A stretch of DNA of 37,113 bases from Betaproteobacteria bacterium. Lineage in GTDB: Bacteria > Pseudomonadota > Gammaproteobacteria > Burkholderiales > Rhodocyclaceae. The notes beneath the pieces are model-generated. The model saw nothing but the letters and a program-made list of their open reading frames with translations, did not search any database and was not told the origin of the DNA. This document shows positions 17,859 through 35,967 of this stretch, one piece after another (the stretch's first letter is position 1; every line of letters starts with the position of its first letter). A program made the translations under genes and the position numbers. The stretch spans positions 1 to 37,113 of the forward strand of contig WREK01000006.1 of assembly GCA_009779355.1 (NCBI GenBank). The letters run 5' to 3'.

Positions 17859-18725
17859 TTGAGAGCTTTCAGCTTTTATTTTGGACAGGAGGGTATCTTG
17901 AAAGAATTATTATCACTTCCGGGAATGTTTGCCGCGCTTTTGCTGGTAGGGGGTTGTGCCAGCATGGATATGGGTTCGGAGGCGGCAAAGACGACAGCAA
18001 CCGGTTCTGCCGCCGGAGCCAACGCACAGGGAGAAAATCCCGTACTCGAAAAATGCGACAAAACATTTGGCACCGCAGAGGTCATTGAGGATCCCGATTC
18101 CGATTGGTACTGGGTACTCGACAGGTACAAACTGAAATCGACCGCGCCGGTGCTCAAATTGCTAGCGCAGCAATCCAACTGCTTCGTGATCGTCGAACGT
18201 GGCAACAAAGGCATGAGAAGCATGATGCGGGAACGCTCATTGGATCAATCCGGCGAACTGCGGAAAAGTTCCAACTTCGGCAAAGGGCAAATGGTGTCCG
18301 CCGATTTCGCGATAAATCCTTCAATCATCTTTAGCGACAAAAATGCGGGTAGCATAGGAGGGAACATTGCTGGCCTGCTTGGGAGCGGTACAGGCCGTAC
18401 GCTCGCCGGTCTGGCAGGCAACGCCAGTTTCAAGGAAGCCAGTACCATGTTGACGTTGGTTGACAACCGCTCCAGCGTACAGCTTGCTGCCGCTGAAGGT
18501 AGCGCCCGCAATACCGACTTTGGCGCGTTAAGCGTTATCTTCGGCAGGGATGCCGGTGGAAGCCTCGGCGGCTACTCGAAAACTGCTGAAGGCAAAGTGA
18601 TCGCTGCCGCGCTTACCGACTCCTTCAACAACCTCGTCAAAGCGTTGCGCAACTACAAGATGCAAAACGTCAAAGGTGGCCTGGGAACCGGGAACAGTGG
18701 CAGTTTGCAAGTGCAGCCGGATTAA
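17859..18725 (+). CDS. CsgG-like / putative outer-membrane lipoprotein
   Basis: Lipobox LLLVGGCAS; LKLLAQQSNCFVIVERGNKGMRSMMRERSLDQSGELR resembles CsgG-type lipoproteins. Confidence 0.6.
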   Translation: MRAFSFYFGQEGILKELLSLPGMFAALLLVGGCASMDMGSEAAKTTATGSAAGANAQGENPVLEKCDKTFGTAEVIEDPDSDWYWVLDRYKLKSTAPVLKLLAQQSNCFVIVERGNKGMRSMMRERSLDQSGELRKSSNFGKGQMVSADFAINPSIIFSDKNAGSIGGNIAGLLGSGTGRTLAGLAGNASFKEASTMLTLVDNRSSVQLAAAEGSARNTDFGALSVIFGRDAGGSLGGYSKTAEGKVIAAALTDSFNNLVKALRNYKMQNVKGGLGTGNSGSLQVQPD

Positions 18726-18826: not shown

Positions 18827-18932
18827 GCAATTTCCAGTTATACAACCATGTTTAATGCCGATTACACTTTGACGAATCTGGATGAAATATGATGAAATCC
18901 GTACCTATTTGCCTTGGCAGAGCGAAGCAACA

Positions 18933-21059
18933 ATGAACCGCGATTTGATAGCGCACACCCCTTTGGGGGAAGCTTGGTGGGCGGTGAGCATGACTGGCCA
19001 CGAGGCGTTGGGGGAACTCTACGAATTCCGTGTAGGGCTGAAATCGGACGACCCGGACATTGACACCCAGTCACTGCTGGGGGAAGTGGCGGCGGTCGAA
19101 CTCATCGCGCAAGGGGGGCTTTCGCGTTACTTTTCCGGGCAGATCGTCAAGGTTTCGGCCCTTGGCCTGAGTGGCCGCCACTGGGCGTACGAAGTGACGC
19201 TGGCCCCGAAACTGTGGCTCGCGACCCGGCGCTCGGACTATCGGATCTGGCAGCAGCAGAGCGTGCGCGAGATTGCCAATGCGGTATTGCAAGCGAACGC
19301 GCTACGTTGCGAATGGCAGCTTAAGAACACCTACAAGACATGGGAATACCTGGTTCAGTATGGGGAGACCGACTTTGCCTTCCTGTCGCGCCTGTTCGAG
19401 CGCGAAGGCATCTATTACTGGTTCGAGCACGGGCTGGACGGGGAAAAGATGGTTCTCGGGGATCACTTCTCCATCCACGAAGCGTTTGGCGGATACAAGC
19501 AAATTCCCTTCTACATGCCGGGTTCCGAGGGGGTGTCTGATGAAGACCACTACGATGGCTGGGCCGCCTCGCGCGAACCGGAACCGGGCCGCTTCAAGCA
19601 CACGGACTACGATTTCCAGCATCCATCGCTGGACTTGACCACTGAATACAGCGACCCGCGCGGGCATCTGTTCGACCAATGCGAAATCTACGCCTACCCA
19701 GGCGGCTACACCGAGACATCCGACGGCAAGGCGTACGCCACGACAAGGCGCGAAGCCCTGCAAAAGGAGCAGGACGTCACCGAGCTAGAAGGCTCCGTGC
19801 GGGGGGCAATGCCCGGTTACAGCTTTACGCTCTACAACCATCCGCGCGCGGATCAGAACCGTGACTACCTGATCACGCGTGCGCGCTACGAAGTGCGCAT
19901 CCACGACTACGAAACCACGCCGGATGCCAACGAGCAGACCTGCCGGATGCGCATTGGGGCCATCCCGGCGGATCGGCAGTTCCGTCCCGGCGCCTGGACG
20001 CCGAAGCCGTGCGTGCGCGGCCCGGAAACGGCGGTGGTGGTAGGCCCCGAGGGCAGCGAGATCCACACTGACCAATACGGGCGGGTAAAAGTGCACTTTC
20101 CCTGGGATCGCTACGGGGCGCGTGACGGTTCCGACACGTGCTGGATACGGGTTTCCACGACTTGGGCGGGCAGGGGTTTTGGGGCGATCTCGATCCCGCG
20201 CGTCGGGCACGAAGTCATCATCGACTACGAGCATGGCAACCCGGATCGGCCCATCATCATCGGGCAGGTCTATAACGCCGAGGAGATGCCGCCCTGGGAA
20301 CTGCCTGCGAACAAAACCCAGTCGGGCGTCCTGAGCCGCTCCAGCATACTGGGTTCGCCTGACAACGCCAATGCGCTACGGTTCGATGACGCCAAGGGCA
20401 ATGAACAGGTCTGGCTGCATGCCGAACGCAACCAGGACATTGAAGTCGAAGCCGATGAGACGCACTGGGTCGGCAAAGACCGTACAAAGACCATCGACGG
20501 AAACGAAACGACTACCGTTCACAAGAACCGTACTGAGACCGTCGACGGCAACGAAACGATCACCATCCACCAGGATCGCACGAAAACGGTTGATGGCACC
20601 GAGACCAGCAAGATCAAGAAGAACAAGGCTGAAACCATCATGCTTGCCTCGGTACAAAGTGTCGGCGCTGCGCGGATGGACAACGTCGGCCTCGCCTACA
20701 ACCTGAACGTCGGCGCGGCGCAGGTCAACATCATCGGTGGCCTTTACAGCCTGGACGTCGGGCGGAAAATGATAACCATTGTTGGTAATGCTCAGGAAAC
20801 TATCGTCCAGAAAGGGGATCAGGAGGTTACCGTCCAGCAAGGGAACCAAAAGATTACCGTCGTGAGCGGAAAACAGACGACCTATGCCGCCAGGAAGATC
20901 CGGTTTGAGGCAGGCGATGAGGATATTACGCTGGTCTGTGGTGACGCCAATATCGTAGTCGCTCCGGATTCGATTGTCCTGAAAGCAGGGGGGGCTGAGG
21001 TGATGATCAACAAAGCGGGCGTTACAGTGAACGGCACCAAGATCCTTTTGAGTGGCTGA
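18933..21059 (+). CDS. vgrG: T6SS spike VgrG (copy 1)
   Basis: MNRDLIAHTPLGEAWWAVSMTGHEALGELYEF; WIRVSTTWAGRGFGAISIPRVGHEVIIDYEHGNPDRPIIIGQVYN; C-terminal 16-aa NETxTxxxNRTxTVDG repeats. Confidence 0.95.
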   Translation: MNRDLIAHTPLGEAWWAVSMTGHEALGELYEFRVGLKSDDPDIDTQSLLGEVAAVELIAQGGLSRYFSGQIVKVSALGLSGRHWAYEVTLAPKLWLATRRSDYRIWQQQSVREIANAVLQANALRCEWQLKNTYKTWEYLVQYGETDFAFLSRLFEREGIYYWFEHGLDGEKMVLGDHFSIHEAFGGYKQIPFYMPGSEGVSDEDHYDGWAASREPEPGRFKHTDYDFQHPSLDLTTEYSDPRGHLFDQCEIYAYPGGYTETSDGKAYATTRREALQKEQDVTELEGSVRGAMPGYSFTLYNHPRADQNRDYLITRARYEVRIHDYETTPDANEQTCRMRIGAIPADRQFRPGAWTPKPCVRGPETAVVVGPEGSEIHTDQYGRVKVHFPWDRYGARDGSDTCWIRVSTTWAGRGFGAISIPRVGHEVIIDYEHGNPDRPIIIGQVYNAEEMPPWELPANKTQSGVLSRSSILGSPDNANALRFDDAKGNEQVWLHAERNQDIEVEADETHWVGKDRTKTIDGNETTTVHKNRTETVDGNETITIHQDRTKTVDGTETSKIKKNKAETIMLASVQSVGAARMDNVGLAYNLNVGAAQVNIIGGLYSLDVGRKMITIVGNAQETIVQKGDQEVTVQQGNQKITVVSGKQTTYAARKIRFEAGDEDITLVCGDANIVVAPDSIVLKAGGAEVMINKAGVTVNGTKILLSG

Positions 21060-22674: not shown

Positions 22675-24858
22675 ATGAACCGCGAATTGATAGCGCACAC
22701 CCCTTTGGGGGAAGCTTGGTGGGCGGTGAGCATAACCGGCCACGAGGCGCTGGGGGAACTCTACGAATTCCGTGTAGGGCTGGTATCGGACGACCCGGAC
22801 ATTGACACCCAGTCTCTGCTGGGGGAAGTGGCGGCGGTCGAACTCATCGCGCAAGGGGGGCGTTCGCGCTACTTTTCCGGGCATATCGTCAAGGTTTCGG
22901 CCCTTGGCCTAAGTGGCCGCCACTGGGCGTACGAAGTGACGCTGGCCCCAAAGCTGTGGCACGCGACCCGGCGCTCGGACTATCGGATCTGGCAGCAGCA
23001 GAGCGTACGCGAGATTGCCAATCAGGTATTGCAAGCGAACGCGCTGCGTTGCGAATGGCGGCTTAAGAACGCCTGCAAGACATGGGAATATCTGGTTCAG
23101 TACGGGGAAACCGACTTTGCTTTTCTGTCGCGGCTGTTCGAGCACGAAGGCATCTATTATTGGTTCGAGCACAGGCTGGACGGGGAAAAGATGATCCTCG
23201 TGGATCACTTCTCCATCCACGAAGCGTTTGATGGATACGAGCAGATCCCCTTCTACACGCCGAATTCCGGGTGGGTGTCTGATGAAGAGCATTACGATGA
23301 CTGGTGCGCCTCGCGCGAGCCGGAGCCGGGCCGCTTCAAACACACGGACTACGATTTCCAGCACCCGTCGCAGGATCTGACCACCGAATACAGCGACCCG
23401 CGCGGGCATCTGTTCGACCAATACGAAATCTACGCCTACCCAGGCGGGTACACCGAGACGTCCGACGGCAGGGCGTACGCCGCAACAAGGCTCGAAGCCC
23501 TGCAAAAGGAGCAGGACGTCACCGAACTCGGCGGTCCCGTGCGGGGAGCAATGCCCGGTTACCGGTTTACGCTCTACAACCATCCGCGCGCGGATCAGAA
23601 CCGCGACTACCTGATCACGCGTGCGCGCTACGAAGTGCGCATCAACGACTACGAAACCACGCCGGATGCCGACGAGCAGACCTGCCGGATGCGCATCGGG
23701 GCCATCCCGGCGGATCGGCAGTTCCGCCCCGGCACCTGGACGCCGAAGCCGTGCGTGCGCGGCCCGGAAACGGCGGTGGTGGTGGGCCCCGGGGGCAGCG
23801 AGATCCACACCGACAAATACGGGCGTGTGAAGGTGCACTTCCCCTGGGACCGCTACGGTGCGCGCGACGGTTCCGACACATGCTGGATACGGGTTTCCAC
23901 GACCTGGGCGGGCAAGGGCTTCGGGGCGGTCTCGATCCCGCGCGTCGGTCACGAGGTCATCATCGACTACGAGCATGGGGACCCGGACCGGCCCATCATC
24001 ATCGGGCAGGTCTACAACGCCGAGACAATGCCGCCCTGGGAACTGCCTTCGGGCAAGGTGCACTCGGGCCTGATGTCGCGCTCGACGCCGGGCGGCTCGG
24101 AAGGCAACACGCTGCGCTTCGACGACACGTCCGGGGCCGAGCAGTTCATGATGCACGCGCAGTACAACATGGACACCAACGTCAACAATGACGAAAGCCA
24201 CACGGTGGGGGCGAACCGCACGACGAGCATCACGGACGACGAAACCTGCGCAGTGGAGGGCAAACGCGACACAACGGTGACGGGCGACGAGACGCTGACT
24301 TGCTCGGCCAACCGGGATAAGACGGTTGTGGGTGATGAGACTTGTTCGACTACCAAAACACGCACCACCAACGTAACCGGCAATGAAACCCTGATTTGTG
24401 CAGCGGACCGGCAAAAAACGATCGATGGCGACGAGAGCAATAATTTTGTGGGAAACCGGGAGAAAAAAGTTGGTGGCTCCGAGGGCGTTGAAATTGGTGA
24501 AGATTCTTCGATTTTTTCCGGGCCGCTTACATATAAGGTGCTCGGTGGCCTGCGGCAAGAGGACGTGGGGGGAGGGCATCAGGTTGGAGTCGACGAAAAC
24601 ATGACTACGAAAGCGGCAAACTATACTGTTACAGCTACCTCGCATTCTGTTACGGCTAAGACCGCAGTTACGGTCAACGCTTCGGTCATTACGCTCAAGG
24701 CTGGTCCCGCGTTGATTCGGATGGATAACTCTGGCATCACGATTGTCGGTTTGATGGAAGATGGCGAGGCAATGGGTGCAAGAAACTTCCTTTCCAGTCT
24801 GGAAAGCGCCATAAGCAAATCGAACGATGTGCAGTCATCCGTGAACAGCGTCAACTAA
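22675..24858 (+). CDS. vgrG: T6SS spike VgrG (copy 2)
   Basis: Near-identical to copies 1 and 3 over about the first 500 aa; different C-terminal tail. Confidence 0.95.
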   Translation: MNRELIAHTPLGEAWWAVSITGHEALGELYEFRVGLVSDDPDIDTQSLLGEVAAVELIAQGGRSRYFSGHIVKVSALGLSGRHWAYEVTLAPKLWHATRRSDYRIWQQQSVREIANQVLQANALRCEWRLKNACKTWEYLVQYGETDFAFLSRLFEHEGIYYWFEHRLDGEKMILVDHFSIHEAFDGYEQIPFYTPNSGWVSDEEHYDDWCASREPEPGRFKHTDYDFQHPSQDLTTEYSDPRGHLFDQYEIYAYPGGYTETSDGRAYAATRLEALQKEQDVTELGGPVRGAMPGYRFTLYNHPRADQNRDYLITRARYEVRINDYETTPDADEQTCRMRIGAIPADRQFRPGTWTPKPCVRGPETAVVVGPGGSEIHTDKYGRVKVHFPWDRYGARDGSDTCWIRVSTTWAGKGFGAVSIPRVGHEVIIDYEHGDPDRPIIIGQVYNAETMPPWELPSGKVHSGLMSRSTPGGSEGNTLRFDDTSGAEQFMMHAQYNMDTNVNNDESHTVGANRTTSITDDETCAVEGKRDTTVTGDETLTCSANRDKTVVGDETCSTTKTRTTNVTGNETLICAADRQKTIDGDESNNFVGNREKKVGGSEGVEIGEDSSIFSGPLTYKVLGGLRQEDVGGGHQVGVDENMTTKAANYTVTATSHSVTAKTAVTVNASVITLKAGPALIRMDNSGITIVGLMEDGEAMGARNFLSSLESAISKSNDVQSSVNSVN

Positions 24859-24901: not shown

Positions 24902-27082
24902 ATGAACCGCGAATTGATAGCGCACACCCCATTGGGGAAAGCCTGGTGGGCGATAAGCGTCACCGGCCACGAGGCGCTTGGTGAGCTGTACGAATTCCGC
25001 GTAGGGCTGCTGTCGGACAGCCCGGACATCGACACCCAGTCGCTGCTTGGGGAAGTGGCGGCGGTCGAGCTCCTCGCGCAAGGGGGCCTGCCGCGCTGGT
25101 TTTCCGGCCAGGTCGTCAAGGTGTCGGCCCTGGGGCTGCGCGGCCTCCACTGGGAGTACGAAGTGGTGCTGGCCCCGAAGCTGTGGCACGCGACCCGCCG
25201 CTCGGACTACCGGATCTGGCAGCAGCAGAGCGTGCGCGAGATCGCCAACCAAGTATTGCAGGCGAACGCGCTGCGCTGCGAATGGCGGCTGAAGGACACC
25301 TACAGGACCTGGGAATACCTGGTCCAGTACGGGGAGACCGACTTTGCCTTCCTGTCGCGGCTGTTCGAGCGCGAAGGCATCTATTACTGGTTCGAGCACG
25401 GCCTGGACGGGGAAAAGATGGTCCTCGGGGACCACTTCTCCATCCACGAAGCGTTTGGCGGGTACGAGCAGGTTCCCTTCCGCACGCCGGGTTCCGGGTG
25501 GGTGCCCGATGAAGACCATTACGATGGCTGGGCCGCCTCGCGCGAGCCGGAGCCGGGCCGGTTCAAACACACGGACTACGATTTCCAGCACCCGTCGCAG
25601 GACCTGACCACCGAATACAGCGACCCGCGCGGGCACCTGTTCGACCAATACGAAATCTACGCCTACCCTGGCGGGTACACCGAGGTGCCCGACGGCAAGG
25701 CATACGCGACGGCAAGGCTCGAGGCCCTGCAAAAGGAGCAGGACGTCACCGAACTCGAAGGCCCCGTGCGGGGCGCGATGCCCGGGTACCGGTTTACGCT
25801 CTACAACCACCCGCGCGCGGACCAGAACCGCGACTACCTGATCACGCGAGCGCGCTACGAAGTGCGCATCAACGACTATGAAACCACGCCGGATGCCGAC
25901 GAGCAGACCTGCCGGATGCGCATTGGGGCCATCCCTGCGGAGCGGCAGTACCGCCCCGGCACCTGGACGCCGAAGCCGTGCGTGCGCGGCCCGGAAACGG
26001 CGGTGGTGGTGGGTCCCGAGGGCAGCGAGATCCACACCGACAAATACGGGCGCGTGAAGGTGCACTTCCCCTGGGACCGCTACGGTGCGCGCGACGGTTC
26101 CGACACGTGCTGGATACGGGTTTCCACGACCTGGGCGGGTAGGGGCTTCGGGGCGGTCTCGATCCCGCGCGTCGGTCACGAAGTCATCATCGACTACGAG
26201 CATGGGGACCCGGACCGGCCCATCATCATCGGGCAGGTCTACAACGCCGAGACGATGCCGCCCTGGGAACTGCCTTCGGGCAAGGTGCAGTCGGGCCTGA
26301 TGTCGCGCTCGACGCCGGGCGGCTCGGAAGGCAACGCGCTGCGCTTCGACGACACGACCGGGGCCGAGCAGTTCATGATGCACGCGCAGTACAACATGGA
26401 CACCGACGTCAACAACGACGAAAGCCACACGGTGGGGGCGAACCGCACGACAAACATTGGGGCTGACGATACCTGCGCAGTGGAGGGCAAACGCGACACA
26501 ACGGTGACGGGCGACGAGATGCTGACCTGTTCATCCAACCGGACGAAGACGATCGAGGGCGACGAGTCTTGTTCGACTGGTGGGACACGCACCACTACCG
26601 TAACCGGCGATGAAACCCTGATTTGCGAAGCGGATAGGGAAAAAACTGTTACGGGAAATGAAACGAGCAATATCACTGGCGACCGGGTAAAGATCGTTGG
26701 CGGGTCGGAAGAATCTACTATTACAGGCACTTCGGATGTCACGATCAAAGGTGCGAGCATACACAGTGTAGACGGTGACCGTAGCGATGAGGTATCCGGC
26801 TGTTATAACCTGACAATCACTGGCGACATGAGCACTTCAGCAGTGGATCACAGCGTGGAAGCCACCAACCACACCGTCAATGCCAAGACAGCTACGCTTG
26901 ACGGCAGTTCTTCGGTCACACTGAACGCGGGCATCTCAAGTATTTCGATCAGCCCTGTGGGTATTACTTTGTCGTGCCCGGTGCTTACGGTATTGGCCGC
27001 TACGGTGAATTACTCTGGCGCTGCGGCGAGCAGTTCATCCCTGATGAACATTATTAAGTCGGGAAGGGTCAGTTACAAGTGA
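24902..27082 (+). CDS. vgrG: T6SS spike VgrG (copy 3)
   Basis: Same core as copies 1 and 2; tail diverges from copy 2 after the 16-aa repeats; overlaps the downstream gene. Confidence 0.95.
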   Translation: MNRELIAHTPLGKAWWAISVTGHEALGELYEFRVGLLSDSPDIDTQSLLGEVAAVELLAQGGLPRWFSGQVVKVSALGLRGLHWEYEVVLAPKLWHATRRSDYRIWQQQSVREIANQVLQANALRCEWRLKDTYRTWEYLVQYGETDFAFLSRLFEREGIYYWFEHGLDGEKMVLGDHFSIHEAFGGYEQVPFRTPGSGWVPDEDHYDGWAASREPEPGRFKHTDYDFQHPSQDLTTEYSDPRGHLFDQYEIYAYPGGYTEVPDGKAYATARLEALQKEQDVTELEGPVRGAMPGYRFTLYNHPRADQNRDYLITRARYEVRINDYETTPDADEQTCRMRIGAIPAERQYRPGTWTPKPCVRGPETAVVVGPEGSEIHTDKYGRVKVHFPWDRYGARDGSDTCWIRVSTTWAGRGFGAVSIPRVGHEVIIDYEHGDPDRPIIIGQVYNAETMPPWELPSGKVQSGLMSRSTPGGSEGNALRFDDTTGAEQFMMHAQYNMDTDVNNDESHTVGANRTTNIGADDTCAVEGKRDTTVTGDEMLTCSSNRTKTIEGDESCSTGGTRTTTVTGDETLICEADREKTVTGNETSNITGDRVKIVGGSEESTITGTSDVTIKGASIHSVDGDRSDEVSGCYNLTITGDMSTSAVDHSVEATNHTVNAKTATLDGSSSVTLNAGISSISISPVGITLSCPVLTVLAATVNYSGAAASSSSLMNIIKSGRVSYK

Positions 27083-27603
27083 TTAAAATGGATCCCAAAC
27101 CAGAACGATCATCCTCTGTTGCAACTGACGAAACGCCGTTGGAAACCCTGTTGCAACGCCCTGCCGCTTTGCCGGAGCGGGTCGATGGCATTCTCGTTGG
27201 CCACGTAGACAAAATTACTCCGGACGGTTCTCCCTGTGTGGCCATCGAGGCGTTCGGACTTGCCGGAGTCCTTGCCGCCAGCCTGACACCCATCGCCGAA
27301 GAACACATCGGAAAAAAAGTTGCGCTCGGTTTCGAGGCAGGCAATCCGCGCCGCCCGATCATCCTCGGCCTGATGTTCGAACCCGCGCAGTGGGAAGCGG
27401 CCTCAAGTGATCCCGCGTCTTTGAACGTCACGCACGAGGATGGCCGCTGCGTTGTTTCGGCCGAGGACGAACTCGAACTGCGCTGCGGTGAAGCGCTCAT
27501 CCGGCTCCGCGCGGACGGGCGCATCTATCTGCGCGGCCAATACATTACCAGCCATGCCGACGTCGGTCAGCGCATACGCGGTGGCTCGGTGCAGATCAAC
27601 TAA
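27079..27603 (+). CDS. DUF6484-like T6SS accessory protein
   Basis: VDGILVGHVDKITPDGSPCVAI...GKKVALGFEAGNPRRPIILGLM; GTG start overlaps vgrG3 stop. Confidence 0.75.
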   Translation: MIKMDPKPERSSSVATDETPLETLLQRPAALPERVDGILVGHVDKITPDGSPCVAIEAFGLAGVLAASLTPIAEEHIGKKVALGFEAGNPRRPIILGLMFEPAQWEAASSDPASLNVTHEDGRCVVSAEDELELRCGEALIRLRADGRIYLRGQYITSHADVGQRIRGGSVQIN

Positions 27604-27614
27604 AGGGTACGTGC

Positions 27615-28655
27615 ATGGAGTGGACGATTCCTGCCAGGTTTCTTTTTGATGCTTTCACCGCGTATGACGTGAGTGGGTACGAGCATTTGGTGACCATCGT
27701 CAAAGCTACCTGGCAGATTCCCACTGGCGACCACCCACCTTACCCGATCATCCCGCCGCCGCCGTTCTGCATAGCCGACGAATTCCATGGAGAGGCGGGG
27801 CTGTCGCCCATGCGCTATGGCTCTGATTACTTCCGTTTTAAATCTCGTTGCGATGTGCTGTTCGACTCAGTCGCGCATGCCCCTGACGGAAAACCTGTAC
27901 CCAGGCTCGATGTATCCGTCCAAGTTGGCAACTGGCGCAAGAAGCTTCGTGTGCACGGCGACCGTAAATGGCAGCATGGGTTAGTGGGCCTGACACCTGG
28001 CGAGGCAGAGCCGTTCGTTTCCATACCCCTGCATTTTGGGCGCGCTTTCGGCGGTAGCCGCGAATACGGGAATGACAAACGGTGCGAGTCCCTGCTGTCC
28101 AATCCTTCCGGCATCGGCTGGGGGGGGCCGCACACTTGGCACAAACTGAAAGGAGAACCTGTCCCAAACCTGGAATACCCGAATGATCCGATACTCGATC
28201 CCCAGGGCGGGCATCGTCCCGCCGCGCTCAGTGCCGTGCCCGGTCATTGGGATCCACGCCGACGTTATACCGGAACCTATGACGATGCTTGGCGGCGTGA
28301 TAGAAGCCCGCTTCTACCTGATGATTTTGACGAACGCTTTTACCAGAGCGCGCCGGAAGATCAGCAACTCTCCTACCCCCATGGCGGTGAGCAGGTCGTT
28401 TTACGCAACTTGCTTGCCCGTGCGGAAGAAGTCAGTTTCAAGCTGCCGCCGCTGGCGGGAATCAAACTGCATGTGACGCGCAACGACGATAGCGTCCAGA
28501 CGCTCGATGCGTATCCCGACACGCTATTCTTTGAGACCGAATCGAACCGTTTTTCCGTGATCTGGCGCGCAAGCGCGCTGCTACGGAGAAACTTGATCGA
28601 GGTGGACGAAATTGAACTCGACGCGCCGGACGAGTTGTTGGAGGTGGCGGCATGA
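27615..28655 (+). CDS. DUF2169-like T6SS adaptor/chaperone
   Basis: LVTIVKATWQIP...DEFHGEAGLSPMRYGSDY...KPVPRLDVSVQVGNWRKKLRVHGDRKW...EPFVSIPLHFGRAFGGS. Confidence 0.85.
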   Translation: MEWTIPARFLFDAFTAYDVSGYEHLVTIVKATWQIPTGDHPPYPIIPPPPFCIADEFHGEAGLSPMRYGSDYFRFKSRCDVLFDSVAHAPDGKPVPRLDVSVQVGNWRKKLRVHGDRKWQHGLVGLTPGEAEPFVSIPLHFGRAFGGSREYGNDKRCESLLSNPSGIGWGGPHTWHKLKGEPVPNLEYPNDPILDPQGGHRPAALSAVPGHWDPRRRYTGTYDDAWRRDRSPLLPDDFDERFYQSAPEDQQLSYPHGGEQVVLRNLLARAEEVSFKLPPLAGIKLHVTRNDDSVQTLDAYPDTLFFETESNRFSVIWRASALLRRNLIEVDEIELDAPDELLEVAA

Positions 28656-29713
28656 GCGGACGCCAGACATTCCGGTCATCCCAACCCTTGCGCGTCGTAG
28701 CGCGAGGCGCCTGCTGCTCCCTGGGCTTTTCCGCACCATCCGTTGTTGCAGCGATGCGTGCCTGCCTCTGCCGCTATGCCCCCACAGATTTCCTGGACGA
28801 TGAGAAAGGGCGTATTCCCGGTGCCATGTTGTTTCAAGTCCCGATAACCGGAAGAGAACGGCTGTTGTACATGTACCGTTCGGCGGTGGGCGAATGCCTG
28901 TCGGCGCTGCCGCATGAGCCGGATCAACCCCTGCCGCCGTTCATCGTGCTGGGCGGCGAAGGCGATGGTGAACACGGCCGATGGCAGGCGGAACAGATGG
29001 ACTGGCTGCTGGATGCGTACCGCCCTGAAGATGGGCATGACCCGCGCACGCGGCACGTTTGCGCGGGCAAGGCGGGCATTGCCGAGGGGCTGCTTGCGGC
29101 GCGCGAGATTCTTACCGCGCCAGACGCGCCGGAATACGTGATTGTTGCGGGCGTAGACAGTTTTCTGGAGCCTGAAACGTTCATTCGTTTTATGAATGCG
29201 CGCCGGATATTCAGTTTCACGAATTCGGACGGTTTTGTTCCGGGCGAAGCAGGTACGGCCATTGCGCTGTCCGCCCGTTCCGATGGCACGCCCGGGTTAT
29301 GGATCGAAGGGGTAGGGCAAGGCCATGAACCGGCATCGCCCGAATCCAACGAAGTCCCTCTGTTCGCGCGTGGTTTGACCGACGCTTTGCGTGCCGCCGC
29401 TGATGATGCCGGCCTGCAACCGTGGGATTATGCTTTTCATGCCAGTGCAGTGACGGGTGAGCAGTGGTACTACAAGGAAACCTCACTCGCTGTCAGCCGG
29501 TTCTTTGCACAAAACGTGCCGGAACCTGCGCCGGAAATCGGCACAGGGCTGATTTGCCGGACGACGGGCGAAATCGGTGCGGCAAGCGGTCCGTTGGGGC
29601 TTGCCTGGGCGGAGCGCGAAATGGCGCATGGCACGCTGGGCACACGGGGGCTGCTGCATTTTTCCAACCATAACGGCCAGCGTGCGGCGCTGGCGGTGAA
29701 TTACCGGGTTTGA
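28652..29713 (+). CDS. Thiolase-fold / beta-ketoacyl synthase-like protein in the T6SS cassette
   Basis: EYVIVAGVDSFLEPETFIRFMNARRIFS...DGFVPGEAGTAIALS; VCAGKAGIAEG; GEIGAASGPLGLAWA; overlaps the DUF2169-like gene. Confidence 0.8.
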   Translation: MSGRQTFRSSQPLRVVARGACCSLGFSAPSVVAAMRACLCRYAPTDFLDDEKGRIPGAMLFQVPITGRERLLYMYRSAVGECLSALPHEPDQPLPPFIVLGGEGDGEHGRWQAEQMDWLLDAYRPEDGHDPRTRHVCAGKAGIAEGLLAAREILTAPDAPEYVIVAGVDSFLEPETFIRFMNARRIFSFTNSDGFVPGEAGTAIALSARSDGTPGLWIEGVGQGHEPASPESNEVPLFARGLTDALRAAADDAGLQPWDYAFHASAVTGEQWYYKETSLAVSRFFAQNVPEPAPEIGTGLICRTTGEIGAASGPLGLAWAEREMAHGTLGTRGLLHFSNHNGQRAALAVNYRV

Positions 29714-29728
29714 ATCGGAGAAACGAAC

Positions 29729-30187
29729 ATGGGAGCCAAAGTAACGATCAATGACCGGGACCTTGCCAGCAAGAGGACGAACGGTAGCGCGGTGGGATTC
29801 CCGAATCCCTGTTGGACGGTTCCACCCCCGCCGAAACCGATTACATACCCCAGCGCCAGGAATAACGCCACTATCAAGAGTGGCACCTGTACCGTCCTCC
29901 ACAGGGGGAAGACGATTGCCGTCTTTCCGCGAGCCTGCTGCGGCAAAAGCGTCGGGGACTTGGCTGCGCTGCCGATATCCGGCCCGAAGTGGGGGGTTGT
30001 GACAAGCGCCAACCAGGACAGCGGCTATTTTGGTGCCGGGTCGAACAACACGTTCATGGAATGCGGGTGTACCTGCCGGATGGGCGACATTTCGACGGGC
30101 AACCAAAAATGCATGGTGCTGACGAACGCGCCGCCAACGCCCTGGATAGCGGGCGGCGGCTGCCCGGATGGCAACTGTAAAGCCTGA
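29729..30187 (+). CDS. PAAR-like (DUF4150-type) Cys-rich spike-tip protein
   Basis: GFPNPCWTVPPPPKPITYPSARNNATIKSGTCTVLHRGKTIAV...KSVGDLA; position between DUF2169-like and rhs. Confidence 0.75.
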   Translation: MGAKVTINDRDLASKRTNGSAVGFPNPCWTVPPPPKPITYPSARNNATIKSGTCTVLHRGKTIAVFPRACCGKSVGDLAALPISGPKWGVVTSANQDSGYFGAGSNNTFMECGCTCRMGDISTGNQKCMVLTNAPPTPWIAGGGCPDGNCKA

Positions 30188-30208: not shown

Positions 30209-33200
30209 TTGGACCACAATGTAGACGTTCTCAGCGGCGTGTACCGCCTCGATGGCGAGGACGAGCTCGACTTCACGCTGGATGCGCCGCTGCCGCTGGC
30301 GTGGCAGCGCACGTATACATCGAGCAACGCCAACACAGGCTGGTTCGGTCAGGGCTGGAGCGTGCCAGTAGCGGATCGGCTGGACATCACCAACGGCAAG
30401 GTTGACTACATTGACAAGAAGGGCAGCCGCACCCCATTCGAGGATCTGAAAGTTGGCGGCGAAACCTACTCGCAATACCGGCACATCACGCTGAAACGCA
30501 CCGCGCGGAATGAATACGAGATCCTCATCGAGGATGGCGGGCTGCGGCTCCTCTTCGGTTTACTGCCGCGCGACGAGAAGCGGCTGCGGGACACCGGCGA
30601 ACTTGAAACGGGCCTTGAGCCGGCCTCACGGCAAGCCCCTGCGCAAGCCGGGACGCTGGCGCTGGTGGCGCAGGTTGACCGCAACGGCAATTCGCTCAAG
30701 ATACGCTACGACGAACACAACATCCCTACGCGGATCGATGCCAGCACGGGCCGCTCGCTCGCGCTTGCCTTCGAGCGCCAGCCGCGCAGGAAGCCCCGCC
30801 TGACAAGCGTGCGCGAACTCCCCCGCGGCGATGGCGCGGGCCGCCTGCTCGTGCAGTACCGCTACAACCCGGAAGGCGACCTCGCCGAAGTGCTCGACGG
30901 CGAAGGCAGGCTGTGCCGCCGTTACCGTTGGGACAGACACATGCTCGTCGGGCATGGCAGCCCCGGCGGCGTCAGCTCGCGCATCGAATACACCCGGCTT
31001 GACCCGAACGGTTTTGTCGCCTCCGAGGCTGTCAGCACCGGGCAGAGCTGGCGCTTCGCGTACGACCTTGAAGACCGCTACATGCGGGTAATCGATAGCG
31101 AAGGGCGTGTTTTTGATACCTGGGCAGATAATGACCGCCGCCGCCCCCTGGTGGTCAAGGACCCGCTGGGCCACACCTGGCGTACCGAATACGACCAGTG
31201 GGGCGGCAATCCCACGCAGGAAATCGACCCGCTGGGCCGGATAACCGAACGCAAGTTCGACAAACGATCCCGCCCTGCCCTGATCGCCCTGCCCGATGGG
31301 TCTTGCTGGGCCATCCAGTGGCACGAGACAAGCGAACTACCGCTCTGCGTCACCGACCCGCTGGGCAACGTGACTCGCTACGAATACGACGAACGGGGCA
31401 ACCTCATCTGTGAGATCGACGCCAACCGCAACGAGACCCTCTATGAACTCGACGCGCGTGGCCTGGTTACCCGGATCACCGATGCCCGTGGCGGCATCCA
31501 ACATCTCGAATACGACCCGGACGGCCGCGTCGTCTCGCACACCGACTGCTCGGACGTGACCACCCGTTACCGCTACGATCAAGGCGGCAATCTCGCCTCG
31601 GTCACGGATGGGGAGGACAACGTCACCAGCTATGCTTGGGAATGGGTCAACCGGCAAGCGCGCCTGAGCGCCGTCCATCACCCCGACGGCAGCACCGAAA
31701 GGTTTGCCTACGATCCCCTGGGGCGCCTCATCGCCTACCACGACCCCCTTGGGCATGCCACCTGCTGGCGGGTCAACGAAGAAGGCGACCCCATTGAGCG
31801 CACCGACGCCCTCGAACATTCGCTCAAATACGCCTACGACCGCCACGGACGGCTGACCACACTCATCAACGAAAACGGCGCGCACTACCATTTCCAGTGG
31901 GACAAAGCCGACCGGCTCACCCGTGAACAAAGCTTCGACGGGCGCGAACAGCACTACACCTACAACGGCGCCGCCGAAGTCATCCTGAGCCGCGACGGAG
32001 CCGAAGACTCAGGCATCCTGACCCGCTACAGGCGCGACCCCCTGGGGCGGCTGCTCTTGAAGACGGCCATCCGGCAAAAGACAGAGATCGACAGCCACCA
32101 GGTTCGGCGCACACGATTCAGCTGGGACAAAGCAGGGCAACTCACCCTTGCGCGCAACCGGCACGCCACAGTCAGTTTCGGCTACACCCCCACTGGCGAA
32201 ATCGAAACGGAAACCACCATTCCCCAGGGCGGCAAACGTAGCGAACTCACCCACCGATACAGCCCGCTTGGGCACCGTATTGCCACCACGCTGCCCGATG
32301 GCAGGACAATCAACCATCTCACCTACGGCAACGGGCACGTCCACCAGATCAACATTGACGGGGAGATCGTCAGCGACATCGAGCGCGACGAGTTGCACCG
32401 GGAGGTCAAACGCACCCAGGGCAAGCTGGAGAGCATTTACACGCTGGACGCGATGGGCAGGCTGCTTGCCTCGCGGGCCAGCAGGCGGGACGGCACGGAG
32501 AGCAACACCACCACGGGGCAGAAGATCGCGCGGCGCTACACGTATGACCAGGGCGGGCGGCTCACACAGATAGAAGATGCCATCGGCGGCATCACCCGGT
32601 ACGGGTACGACGCGCTGGGCAGGCTGCTCGAAGCCGTCACGCCCAACAACACCGAACGTTTCAAGTTTGACCCGGCGCACAACCTGATCGACCCGGCAAG
32701 CGGGCACGGCGAGAAAGCAGGCAAAGAATGGACGGACGAAGAATGGGCCGAGTATGTGCGCGCCCACCTGGACGACCCAGGCTTCAGCCCGCTGAAGAAG
32801 CCAAAGACCCTGCCCTCGCTGTCGAACCGGCTCACGGTTTATGGGGAGCATCGGTACCAGTACGACGCATGGGGCAACTGCACCCAGAAGAAATCCGGCA
32901 AACACGTCACCAGGGACTTCAAGTGGGATGTGGATCATCGGCTGACGGATGCCACGATCACCAATACCACAGCCGGTACCACCGAGCACTGGCAATACAT
33001 CTATGACCCGCTTGGGCGGAGGATTGGCAAACGGAAGGTTGACGGGCAGGGGAACGTACAGGACGCGACGCGGTTTTACTGGGACGGGAACCGGCTGCTG
33101 GCCGAGGACAGGAACAACCGCAGGCAGCTTTACCTGTATGAGCCGGAGAGCTTCGTGCCGCTGGCGCTCGTGCGGTCGGAAGCAACGGACACCGCGCCGG

Positions 33201-34081
33201 AGCGCAAGCCTACGGCACTGCCTGCGAACCTGCCGGAAAACGTCGTTGCCGACCTGGCGCGCATCCGGGAGAGGATGCGCGTTGCCAAGGGGGAGAAAGA
33301 GCCGGAGCCGCTGAAAGGGGAAACCTTTTATATCCATACCGACCAGATTGGGACGCCGAAGGAAGTGACCAACACAGACGGGTGCCTGGTGTGGCGGGCG
33401 GAGTACCTGGCTTGGGGCGGGGTGAGGGAGATCGAGCGGCCTGACGTGCCGGTGACGGTGGCGGATGGCAACACTGCCAGAGTGGTCTGGGAGGGGCAGG
33501 CGGATCCGGTTGAGTGTAACATTCGGTTTCAGGGGCAGTATTGCGACGATGAAACGGGGCTGCATTACAATAGGTTTAGATATTATGATTCGGATGTAGG
33601 GAGGTTTGTTAGTCAGGATCCGATTGGGTTATTGGGGGGAGAGTGTCTTTATCAATATGCAGACAATCCCATATCTTGGATTGATCCGCTAGGTCTGACT
33701 ACTGGTTCACTATCAGGAATACCAAAAATTGGAGAAGTGTTTGGGGCAAGCGTAAATGCAGGCGGGGGGGGGTCTGTGCATCCTCTCATTAGAGATTTAT
33801 ACGGGGATATTGATTTTGAAGATCGTAGTAGATGGCATAAAAGACATTCTGCGAAAACAGACGGAAAGAGTTCATCTTGTGCTGAAGCAAGCGCCCTTAG
33901 TGATCTTGCATATAAGATTGAGCAAGAAAAAGGAATACCAGAAGGTATGCTTACGGAAGACATTCTTAAGAAATACACCGAAGGGGCAACGTGGAGATCT
34001 TATGATTTTTTTGGCGAAGTTATGCCTCCCTGTCCAGGATCGTGTTCAACGGTATTGAACAGATTAGGCATTATTTTCTAG
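30209..34081 (+). CDS. Rhs-repeat protein with C-terminal polymorphic toxin domain
   Basis: Many YD repeats (YEYDERGNLICEIDANRNETLYELDARG etc.); core boundary YQYADNPISWIDPLGL; TTG start assumed at 30209. Confidence 0.93.
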   Translation: MDHNVDVLSGVYRLDGEDELDFTLDAPLPLAWQRTYTSSNANTGWFGQGWSVPVADRLDITNGKVDYIDKKGSRTPFEDLKVGGETYSQYRHITLKRTARNEYEILIEDGGLRLLFGLLPRDEKRLRDTGELETGLEPASRQAPAQAGTLALVAQVDRNGNSLKIRYDEHNIPTRIDASTGRSLALAFERQPRRKPRLTSVRELPRGDGAGRLLVQYRYNPEGDLAEVLDGEGRLCRRYRWDRHMLVGHGSPGGVSSRIEYTRLDPNGFVASEAVSTGQSWRFAYDLEDRYMRVIDSEGRVFDTWADNDRRRPLVVKDPLGHTWRTEYDQWGGNPTQEIDPLGRITERKFDKRSRPALIALPDGSCWAIQWHETSELPLCVTDPLGNVTRYEYDERGNLICEIDANRNETLYELDARGLVTRITDARGGIQHLEYDPDGRVVSHTDCSDVTTRYRYDQGGNLASVTDGEDNVTSYAWEWVNRQARLSAVHHPDGSTERFAYDPLGRLIAYHDPLGHATCWRVNEEGDPIERTDALEHSLKYAYDRHGRLTTLINENGAHYHFQWDKADRLTREQSFDGREQHYTYNGAAEVILSRDGAEDSGILTRYRRDPLGRLLLKTAIRQKTEIDSHQVRRTRFSWDKAGQLTLARNRHATVSFGYTPTGEIETETTIPQGGKRSELTHRYSPLGHRIATTLPDGRTINHLTYGNGHVHQINIDGEIVSDIERDELHREVKRTQGKLESIYTLDAMGRLLASRASRRDGTESNTTTGQKIARRYTYDQGGRLTQIEDAIGGITRYGYDALGRLLEAVTPNNTERFKFDPAHNLIDPASGHGEKAGKEWTDEEWAEYVRAHLDDPGFSPLKKPKTLPSLSNRLTVYGEHRYQYDAWGNCTQKKSGKHVTRDFKWDVDHRLTDATITNTTAGTTEHWQYIYDPLGRRIGKRKVDGQGNVQDATRFYWDGNRLLAEDRNNRRQLYLYEPESFVPLALVRSEATDTAPERKPTALPANLPENVVADLARIRERMRVAKGEKEPEPLKGETFYIHTDQIGTPKEVTNTDGCLVWRAEYLAWGGVREIERPDVPVTVADGNTARVVWEGQADPVECNIRFQGQYCDDETGLHYNRFRYYDSDVGRFVSQDPIGLLGGECLYQYADNPISWIDPLGLTTGSLSGIPKIGEVFGASVNAGGGGSVHPLIRDLYGDIDFEDRSRWHKRHSAKTDGKSSSCAEASALSDLAYKIEQEKGIPEGMLTEDILKKYTEGATWRSYDFFGEVMPPCPGSCSTVLNRLGIIF
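33698..34081 (+). other. Putative nucleic-acid/nucleotide deaminase toxin domain (YwqJ/XOO_2897-like)
   Basis: 127 aa after DPLGL; SSCAEASALSDLAY (C-A-E) and MPPCPGSCSTVLNRLGI (PCx3C). Confidence 0.6.
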
Positions 34082-34098
34082 TTATTTGGAGGTTAATA

Positions 34099-35097
34099 AT
34101 GTCAAGAAAGGAACATCCAAACAATTCAAACAACGAAGAGCAAATATATCAAGACGCTATGAATCATTTATCAGAACTGAAAAAATGTGTTTTTGTCTAT
34201 ACCATTCCATACAAAGATGTGGAGAACTTGTTTATTAGTTATTGCGAAAAAGTGCTATTATCCGATAATGCTTTGCATTTTCTTGGAATAAATCCAACAA
34301 TACATAGAGTTTGCAAATTTTTAGTACAACAAGCTAAAAATTATATGCAAAATGAAATTTCTGGGATAGAGCTCAAGAGGATGAGAAAGTTATGTTGTGA
34401 TTTGATGGATTCTGTAGAAAAAGGATGCAAAGAATGGGCTTTGCTGGATGTAGTGGATAATTTTTTATATGAAGATCTTGATTGCTATTGGGATCCTGAA
34501 ATGGGATTTATAACTTTCTATGACGCTCTCATTGGCTTGGATCAAAATCAGCAGTTCTGTAAACGGTTGACTGATTATATAATTACTGAGTATTATAATA
34601 ATACAAAGTTTTACCCGTTATTAAAAGAATCTAATTATGAAAATATTAATGCGTTTTTGAAAAAATATGGATTTGATAGTGCTGATGAAGATGGGCGAAC
34701 ATTTTTAATGTTTGCAATTATTACAGGGAAGGATCATGTCGTCAATTATCTTGTTAATGAAGGCTGTGATGTAAATATTAAAGATAGATATGGATTAACT
34801 GCATTACATTATGCAGCTTTTTATGATAACTATAATATTGTGAAATTTCTTGTAATTCGAGGAGCTGAAATCGATGCAGTAAATAATATAGGTTCTACCC
34901 CTTTATGGATGGCAGTGAAGGCGGTGATGAACGATGGTAACCCAACATTAACTATAAAATATTTATTAGAGAATGGGGCTGATCCTGATAAAAAAAATAA
35001 TCATGGAGTAACTCCAAATGATTTACTTAGGAAGAGACTTGAAAAAATGGGCGAAAAGGCAGAAACACAGCCCGATGGTAAAGCCAAGAAGCAGTGA
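34099..35097 (+). CDS. Ankyrin-repeat protein, candidate cognate immunity protein
   Basis: GGAGG RBS at 34088; DEDGRTFLMFAIITGKDHVVNYLVNEGCDVNIKDRYGLTALHYAAFYDNYNIVKFLVIRGAEIDAVNNIGSTPLWMAV; begins 17 nt after the rhs stop. Confidence 0.85.
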   Translation: MSRKEHPNNSNNEEQIYQDAMNHLSELKKCVFVYTIPYKDVENLFISYCEKVLLSDNALHFLGINPTIHRVCKFLVQQAKNYMQNEISGIELKRMRKLCCDLMDSVEKGCKEWALLDVVDNFLYEDLDCYWDPEMGFITFYDALIGLDQNQQFCKRLTDYIITEYYNNTKFYPLLKESNYENINAFLKKYGFDSADEDGRTFLMFAIITGKDHVVNYLVNEGCDVNIKDRYGLTALHYAAFYDNYNIVKFLVIRGAEIDAVNNIGSTPLWMAVKAVMNDGNPTLTIKYLLENGADPDKKNNHGVTPNDLLRKRLEKMGEKAETQPDGKAKKQ

Positions 35098-35310: not shown

Positions 35311-35450
35311 GAGTAGGGCGTGATAAGGCCGAAGGCCGCCATCCGCCGATCCAAACCCTCTGGCGCGAAGCGCCACCATTATCATATTGCGATGCTGCGC
35401 ATCGGTCGATACAATTGTCGGATGGCGCCGCTTCGCGGCTTATCCAACCT
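35302..35450. repeat. REP/BIME-like repeat, copy A (upstream of RAYT)
   Basis: GTAGGGCGTGATAAGGCCGAAGGCCGCCATCCGCC...TGGCGCGAAGCGCCACCATT...CATATTGCGATGCTGCGCATCGG...CCGCTTCGCGGC. Confidence 0.85.
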
Positions 35451-35466
35451 ACTTTTGTGTCTGTTT

Positions 35467-35967
35467 ATGCCGAATTTTCGACGTAACCGCGTTCCGGGCG
35501 GGACTTACTTTTTTACGGTCAATTTGCGTGACCGTAAAAGTAAATTGCTCGTGCAAAAAATTGAACTGTTGCGGGAAGTAGTCAAGAAAGTTCGCCAAAA
35601 ACAACCATTCCATATCGACGCTTGGGTGGTGTTACCTAATCATTTACACTGTGTTTGGACGCTCCCGCTGGATGATGCGGATTACCCGTCACGCTGGCAA
35701 AATATCAAAAAAACATTTTCCAGACAAATTCCCGCAACCGAAATTTTGTCCGAAACTCAAACTCGTCAAAATGAACGAGGTATCTGGCAACGCCGCTATT
35801 GGGAACACACCATTCGGGACGACCGGGATTACGAGAAACATGTGGATTATTGCCACATCAATCCACTCAAACACGGACTTGTCACAGCGGTTAATGATTG
35901 GCCATTCTCAACTTTTCACCGCTATGTGCAAACAGGAATTTATCCGCCGGATTGGGCAATTTCGTAG
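35467..35967 (+). CDS. REP-associated tyrosine transposase (RAYT, Y1_Tnp family)
   Basis: RRNRVPGGTYFFTVNLRDRKS; VVLPNHLHCVWTLP (HxH); RYWEHTIRDDRDYEKHVDYCHINPLKHGLV. Confidence 0.93.
   Translation: MPNFRRNRVPGGTYFFTVNLRDRKSKLLVQKIELLREVVKKVRQKQPFHIDAWVVLPNHLHCVWTLPLDDADYPSRWQNIKKTFSRQIPATEILSETQTRQNERGIWQRRYWEHTIRDDRDYEKHVDYCHINPLKHGLVTAVNDWPFSTFHRYVQTGIYPPDWAIS

Follow-up and report, generated by a model that had tools for sequence, protein, structure and literature searches.

The window, by which we mean the whole analysed stretch of 37,113 nucleotides, carries a T6SS cassette on the forward strand with the gene order vgrG - DUF6484 (TvpC) - DUF2169 (TvpA) - TvpD - DUF4150/PAAR-like - Rhs. 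The vgrG spike gene (24902-27082, +) matches TIGR03361 with an E value of 6e-170. It is followed by tvpC (27079-27603, +), which encodes a short VgrG mimic with a DUF6484 domain (PF20093, E 2.5e-13), and by tvpA (27615-28655, +), whose DUF2169 product is the putative chaperone of the DUF4150/PIPY PAAR-like tip (PF09937, E 4.7e-83). The next gene, tvpD (28652-29713, +), is the subject of this study; its product is PRK06147-like and appears to be a catalytically dead KAS-fold protein. The open reading frame, which had been proposed in an earlier note on this DNA, is real and encodes 353 amino acids; its ATG start overlaps the stop codon of the upstream DUF2169 gene as ATGA. Downstream lie the genes for a stand-alone PAAR-like protein (29729-30187, +; PF13665, formerly DUF4150; Tox-PAAR-like, E 1e-9) and for an Rhs protein (30209-34081, +), the probable effector of the cassette.

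The surroundings of the cassette contain several additional features. The vgrG gene of the cassette adjoins a second one at 22675-24858; the two products share 81% identity over 690 residues and diverge in the C-terminal prism. A third vgrG is located at 18882-21059, and a CsgG-like open reading frame (17859-18725) lies in the interval that separates the aryl-polyene cluster from the vgrG genes. The Rhs gene is immediately followed by an ankyrin-repeat open reading frame (34042-35097), a candidate for the immunity protein. The fragment of an IS200-like transposase (35320-35967), which scores barely above the Pfam cut-off, adjoins the cassette. The PAAR-like protein has the motif PITYP, while PIPYP or PVPYP occurs in 94 of 125 homologues; the three PITYP rows in the homologue set are apparently copies of the window's own locus. 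The second Pro of the motif touches DUF2169 in a published model, so the DUF2169 interface may differ here. The genome from which the window comes contains a TssC gene and a single DUF2169 gene, and a search of this fragmented assembly did not find the TssM C-terminal domain.

The product of tvpD matches the family model NF004798 (PRK06147) with an E value of 1.1e-58 over 341 of the 349 model positions. Its score of 199 bits is below the equivalog cut-off of 342 bits; this cut-off is strict, since only 7 of the 398 genomes in the phylum sample contain a match that exceeds it. Among the Pfam ketoacyl-synt models we obtained only a weak match to PF00109, with 12.9 bits versus a gathering score of 20.8. 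In the phylogenetic tree the TvpD proteins form one clade, which is separate from the KAS proteins with a support of 100. The window protein groups with L002, which belongs to the same genus, and with L068 from a MAG named Azoarcus sp.; Chitiniphilus-type proteins are the next neighbours. Two entries in this tree, L045 and L070, appear to be one locus. Its placement in the clade is clear, and the window protein is best read as a TvpD of the PRK06147/NF004798 kind, encoded in a class II Tvp cassette.

The TvpD family, its gene context and its proposed role have already been described, and the window protein is a new member. The class II Tvp system was reported by Monlezun et al. (2026, EMBO J, PMC13373197), who named the PRK06147 protein TvpD. 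The type of gene cluster is synteny type A of Sachar et al. 2025, which includes a thiolase-like gene (PMC11883445). Both a DUF6484-type TvpC and TvpD, the features of class II, are present in the window; a scan of the cassette proteins gave no pentapeptide-repeat match that would indicate TvpB. The window protein shares its family and fold with TvpD of P. aeruginosa (PA0098) and P. mirabilis (PMI0754), and the order vgrG-DUF6484-DUF2169-tvpD-PAAR-like is the same as in these class II systems. It is 34-35% identical to the protein from P. aeruginosa PA7 (L094). A difference concerns the PAAR-like protein, which in the window is encoded apart from the Rhs effector; Tse7, by contrast, is a fusion protein.

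For a comparison across the family we collected 126 distinct homologous sequences, partly by searching whole genomes and partly by scanning a set of named genomes. Because NF004798 also matches ordinary KAS proteins, acceptance was limited to full-length high-scoring matches and to profile matches with E 1e-15 or better. A contig scan with the single window protein as query gave no match; with an alignment as query it succeeded. In this collection scan of contigs the window gene order recurred in most of 80 loci. A DUF2169 gene was located upstream of tvpD in all 80 loci, and a PAAR-like gene downstream in 76; the remaining four (L071, L100, L117 and L120) run into or near a contig end. The same neighbours are present in annotated plasmid records of T6SS clusters from Caballeronia and Rhizobium. 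Four loci from the whole-genome search (L155, L158, L162 and L171) show another cassette order, in which the PAAR-like gene lies about 1.2 kb upstream of tvpD and not downstream. The tvpD gene of Thauera butanivorans (L069, 5877-7025) is broken across two reading frames by a frameshift or a sequencing error.

An alignment of 107 homologues served as input for an AlphaFold2 model of the window TvpD, which had a mean pLDDT of 94.5 and a pTM of 0.93. A Foldseek search of the PDB with this model resulted in matches to FabF/KAS II and to the actinorhodin KS/CLF with TM scores of 0.72-0.77 and 12-16% identity. The family profile found KAS II (1j3n, E 9e-14) and KSbeta (1tqy_B, E 6e-11) among the PDB sequences; a single-sequence phmmer search of the PDB with the window TvpD gave no significant match. 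The E values of the KAS II match and of the NF004798 match rule out a chance similarity. The model furthermore contains a strand at 134-137 followed by a helix at 139-154, which is the layout of the KAS nucleophile elbow, and the PGE/GE motif (Glu199) is common to TvpD and FabF/KAS II. According to the model, the window TvpD has a FabF/KAS II-like (KAS/thiolase-like) fold. The earlier note had recognized a ketosynthase-like protein in a T6SS cassette, and this is supported here. While fold and elbow are alike, TvpD differs from FabF/KAS II in that all four catalytic positions are replaced, the gate-loop Phe is lost and loops amounting to about 50 residues are deleted.

The replacements at the four catalytic positions could be followed through the homologues. 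The position of the nucleophilic Cys is occupied by Lys140 (codon AAG, 29069-29071), both in a MAFFT alignment with KAS proteins and in the alignment of the HMM profile with PDB 1j3n. This column contains R 79, H 23, K 10, Q 7, T 3, S 2, G 1 and A 1 in the 126 homologues; it is basic in 112 and Cys in none. The earlier note had taken Cys137 (TGC, 29060-29062) for the nucleophile. The codon is present, but the assignment fails: Cys137 lies three residues upstream, Lys140 takes the nucleophile position in the two alignments and in the elbow of the model, and among the 126 homologues the window protein alone carries a Cys three residues or fewer away from the column. The first catalytic His corresponds to Ala266 (GCA, 29447-29449) in one alignment or to Thr268, because the register is uncertain by two residues. 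In one register the 126 homologues have D 101, S 16, G 5, A 2, E 1 and N 1 in this column, and the other register likewise contains no His. We also considered His263 as a substitute for a catalytic His; this was rejected, since 77 of 126 homologues carry Arg at the position and only 6 carry His. The KAS Lys (FabF K335) is replaced by Cys302 in the window TvpD and by Ala in 106 of 126 homologues, and none of the 126 retains it. At the position of the second His we find Glu307 (GAA, 29570-29572). The 125 homologues with a letter in this column have E 75, D 28, N 17, H 2 and one each of R, Y and Q, which means that E, D or N is present in 120. The reading of the earlier note that GEIGAASG with this Glu stands in the place of KAS GHTLGAAG is borne out by the alignment.

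In the same columns 22 of 22 checked KAS proteins have Cys, His, Lys and His, and Cys-His-Lys-His is also intact in both ketosynthases of the aryl-polyene cluster in the window, whose GHTLGAAG motif the earlier note had pointed out. The PA7 orthologue has likewise lost the catalytic residues, with Arg, Asp and Glu at the Cys, first His and second His positions. As aligned, the window TvpD is changed at all four KAS catalytic positions, and this is a trait of the whole family. The broken triad suspected before is therefore a real loss, but its extent was undercounted, with four positions changed and not one. Nor is the change from His to Glu special to the window protein: Glu is the most common replacement of the second His, but Asp, Asn and occasionally His also occur. 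A search for a different conserved His in the active site, and for homologues with an intact triad in the same gene context, found neither. We found no report of a family-wide replacement of the TvpD catalytic residues in the openly accessible literature searched; the words "catalytic", "active site", "histidine" and "KAS" are absent from the EMBO J paper (PMC13373197).

These data bear on the question of what TvpD does. The annotation as "3-oxoacyl-ACP synthase" and the KAS-like fold would suit an enzyme that is active in acyl transfer or condensation and modifies an effector or immunity protein by acylation, and acylation of effectors was suggested in 2013 for the P. mirabilis homologue PMI0754 (PMC3764213). 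The absence of Cys, first His and Lys from all 126 homologues, together with a gap at the FabF gate-loop Phe position in 125 of 126, makes such an activity extremely improbable; this residue pattern argues against the acylation idea for PMI0754. The loss of the Lys and of both His also makes the decarboxylase-like activity considered in the earlier note unlikely. The KAS fold and the N-terminal core are kept, and this would be compatible with a non-catalytic protein that binds acyl-ACP or lipid and couples spike loading to the lipid state. KSbeta/CLF (1tqy_B), a relative with the KAS fold that lacks the nucleophilic Cys and serves as a partner protein, is a precedent for this among the structure and profile matches. 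However, CLF works in a pair with an active KS, where it shapes the polyketide channel, while the TvpD cassette has no partner KS. Since charged residues take the expected place of the acyl thioester, several KAS loops are deleted and no link to an ACP is known, we regard acyl or lipid binding as very unlikely.

Several polar residues of the former active site are strongly conserved: position 140 is basic in 112 of 126 homologues, Glu270 is present in 122 and Arg283 in 121, and position 307 is E, D or N in 120 of 125. The replacement of Cys by a basic and of His by an acidic or amide residue would set opposite charges side by side, and the Lys140-Glu307 pair may form a structural salt bridge. 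Covariation of positions 140 and 307 is suggestive only; a plain table gives a Fisher p of 8.5e-6, while the tree provides only 3-4 informative pairs among 6 independent ones (sign test p 0.125-0.25). A buried site in a pure scaffold could drift, and the conservation could indicate that the basic residue at 140, Asp at 266 in most homologues, Glu270, Arg283 and the acidic residue at 307 rebuild the pocket into a new functional site for ligand binding or other catalysis. We consider this unlikely, since the residues vary in identity (R/H/K; E/D/N; D/S/G/A), as suits structural salt bridges more than a chemical function, neither a substrate nor a biochemical link is known, and chaperoning is the published role. 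It is similarly doubtful that the conserved charged pocket (140 basic, 307 acidic or amide, Glu270 and Arg283) recognizes a particular partner or ligand and serves as a switch for the loading of the spike.

The window protein is most likely a KAS-fold pseudoenzyme, TvpD, that acts together with TvpA as a co-chaperone of the PAAR-like tip, and our confidence in this is good. This agrees with the scaffold or loading role, rather than that of a condensing enzyme, which the earlier note had favoured. TvpD and the DUF2169 protein TvpA would cup the hydrophobic PAAR-like tip protein, with TvpD covering part of it. Meanwhile the tip would be mounted on TvpC, the short VgrG mimic, and afterwards on the VgrG encoded alongside; tip and Rhs effector would thereby be ready for loading and firing. 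A role of DUF2169 as PAAR-like chaperone has been shown experimentally in Vibrio. For P. aeruginosa, a model gives TvpD (PA0098) a co-chaperone role towards the PAAR domain: PA0097 and PA0098 make a groove over this domain in an AlphaFold complex of PA0096/PA0097/PA0098/Tse7-PAAR, which is a prediction with an ipTM of 0.753 (PMC13373197). Disruption of the TvpD homologue PMI0754 in P. mirabilis abolishes the T6SS boundary with the immunity mutant, with loss of killing or recognition; complementation required the downstream genes also, so the genetics are clouded by polar effects (PMC3764213). We found no direct biochemical test of any TvpD in the literature. The same co-chaperone role in the window organism is inferred by analogy with these systems.

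For the window alone the result is ordinary. Its meaning lies in the family: an entire family of T6SS proteins that carries the annotation "3-oxoacyl-ACP synthase" appears to be without any ketosynthase catalytic residue, save a rare second His (2 of 125). This family-wide loss removes the enzymatic interpretation put forward in 2013 and lends support to the chaperone model of 2026, and the conserved basic/acidic replacement points to specific residues for testing.
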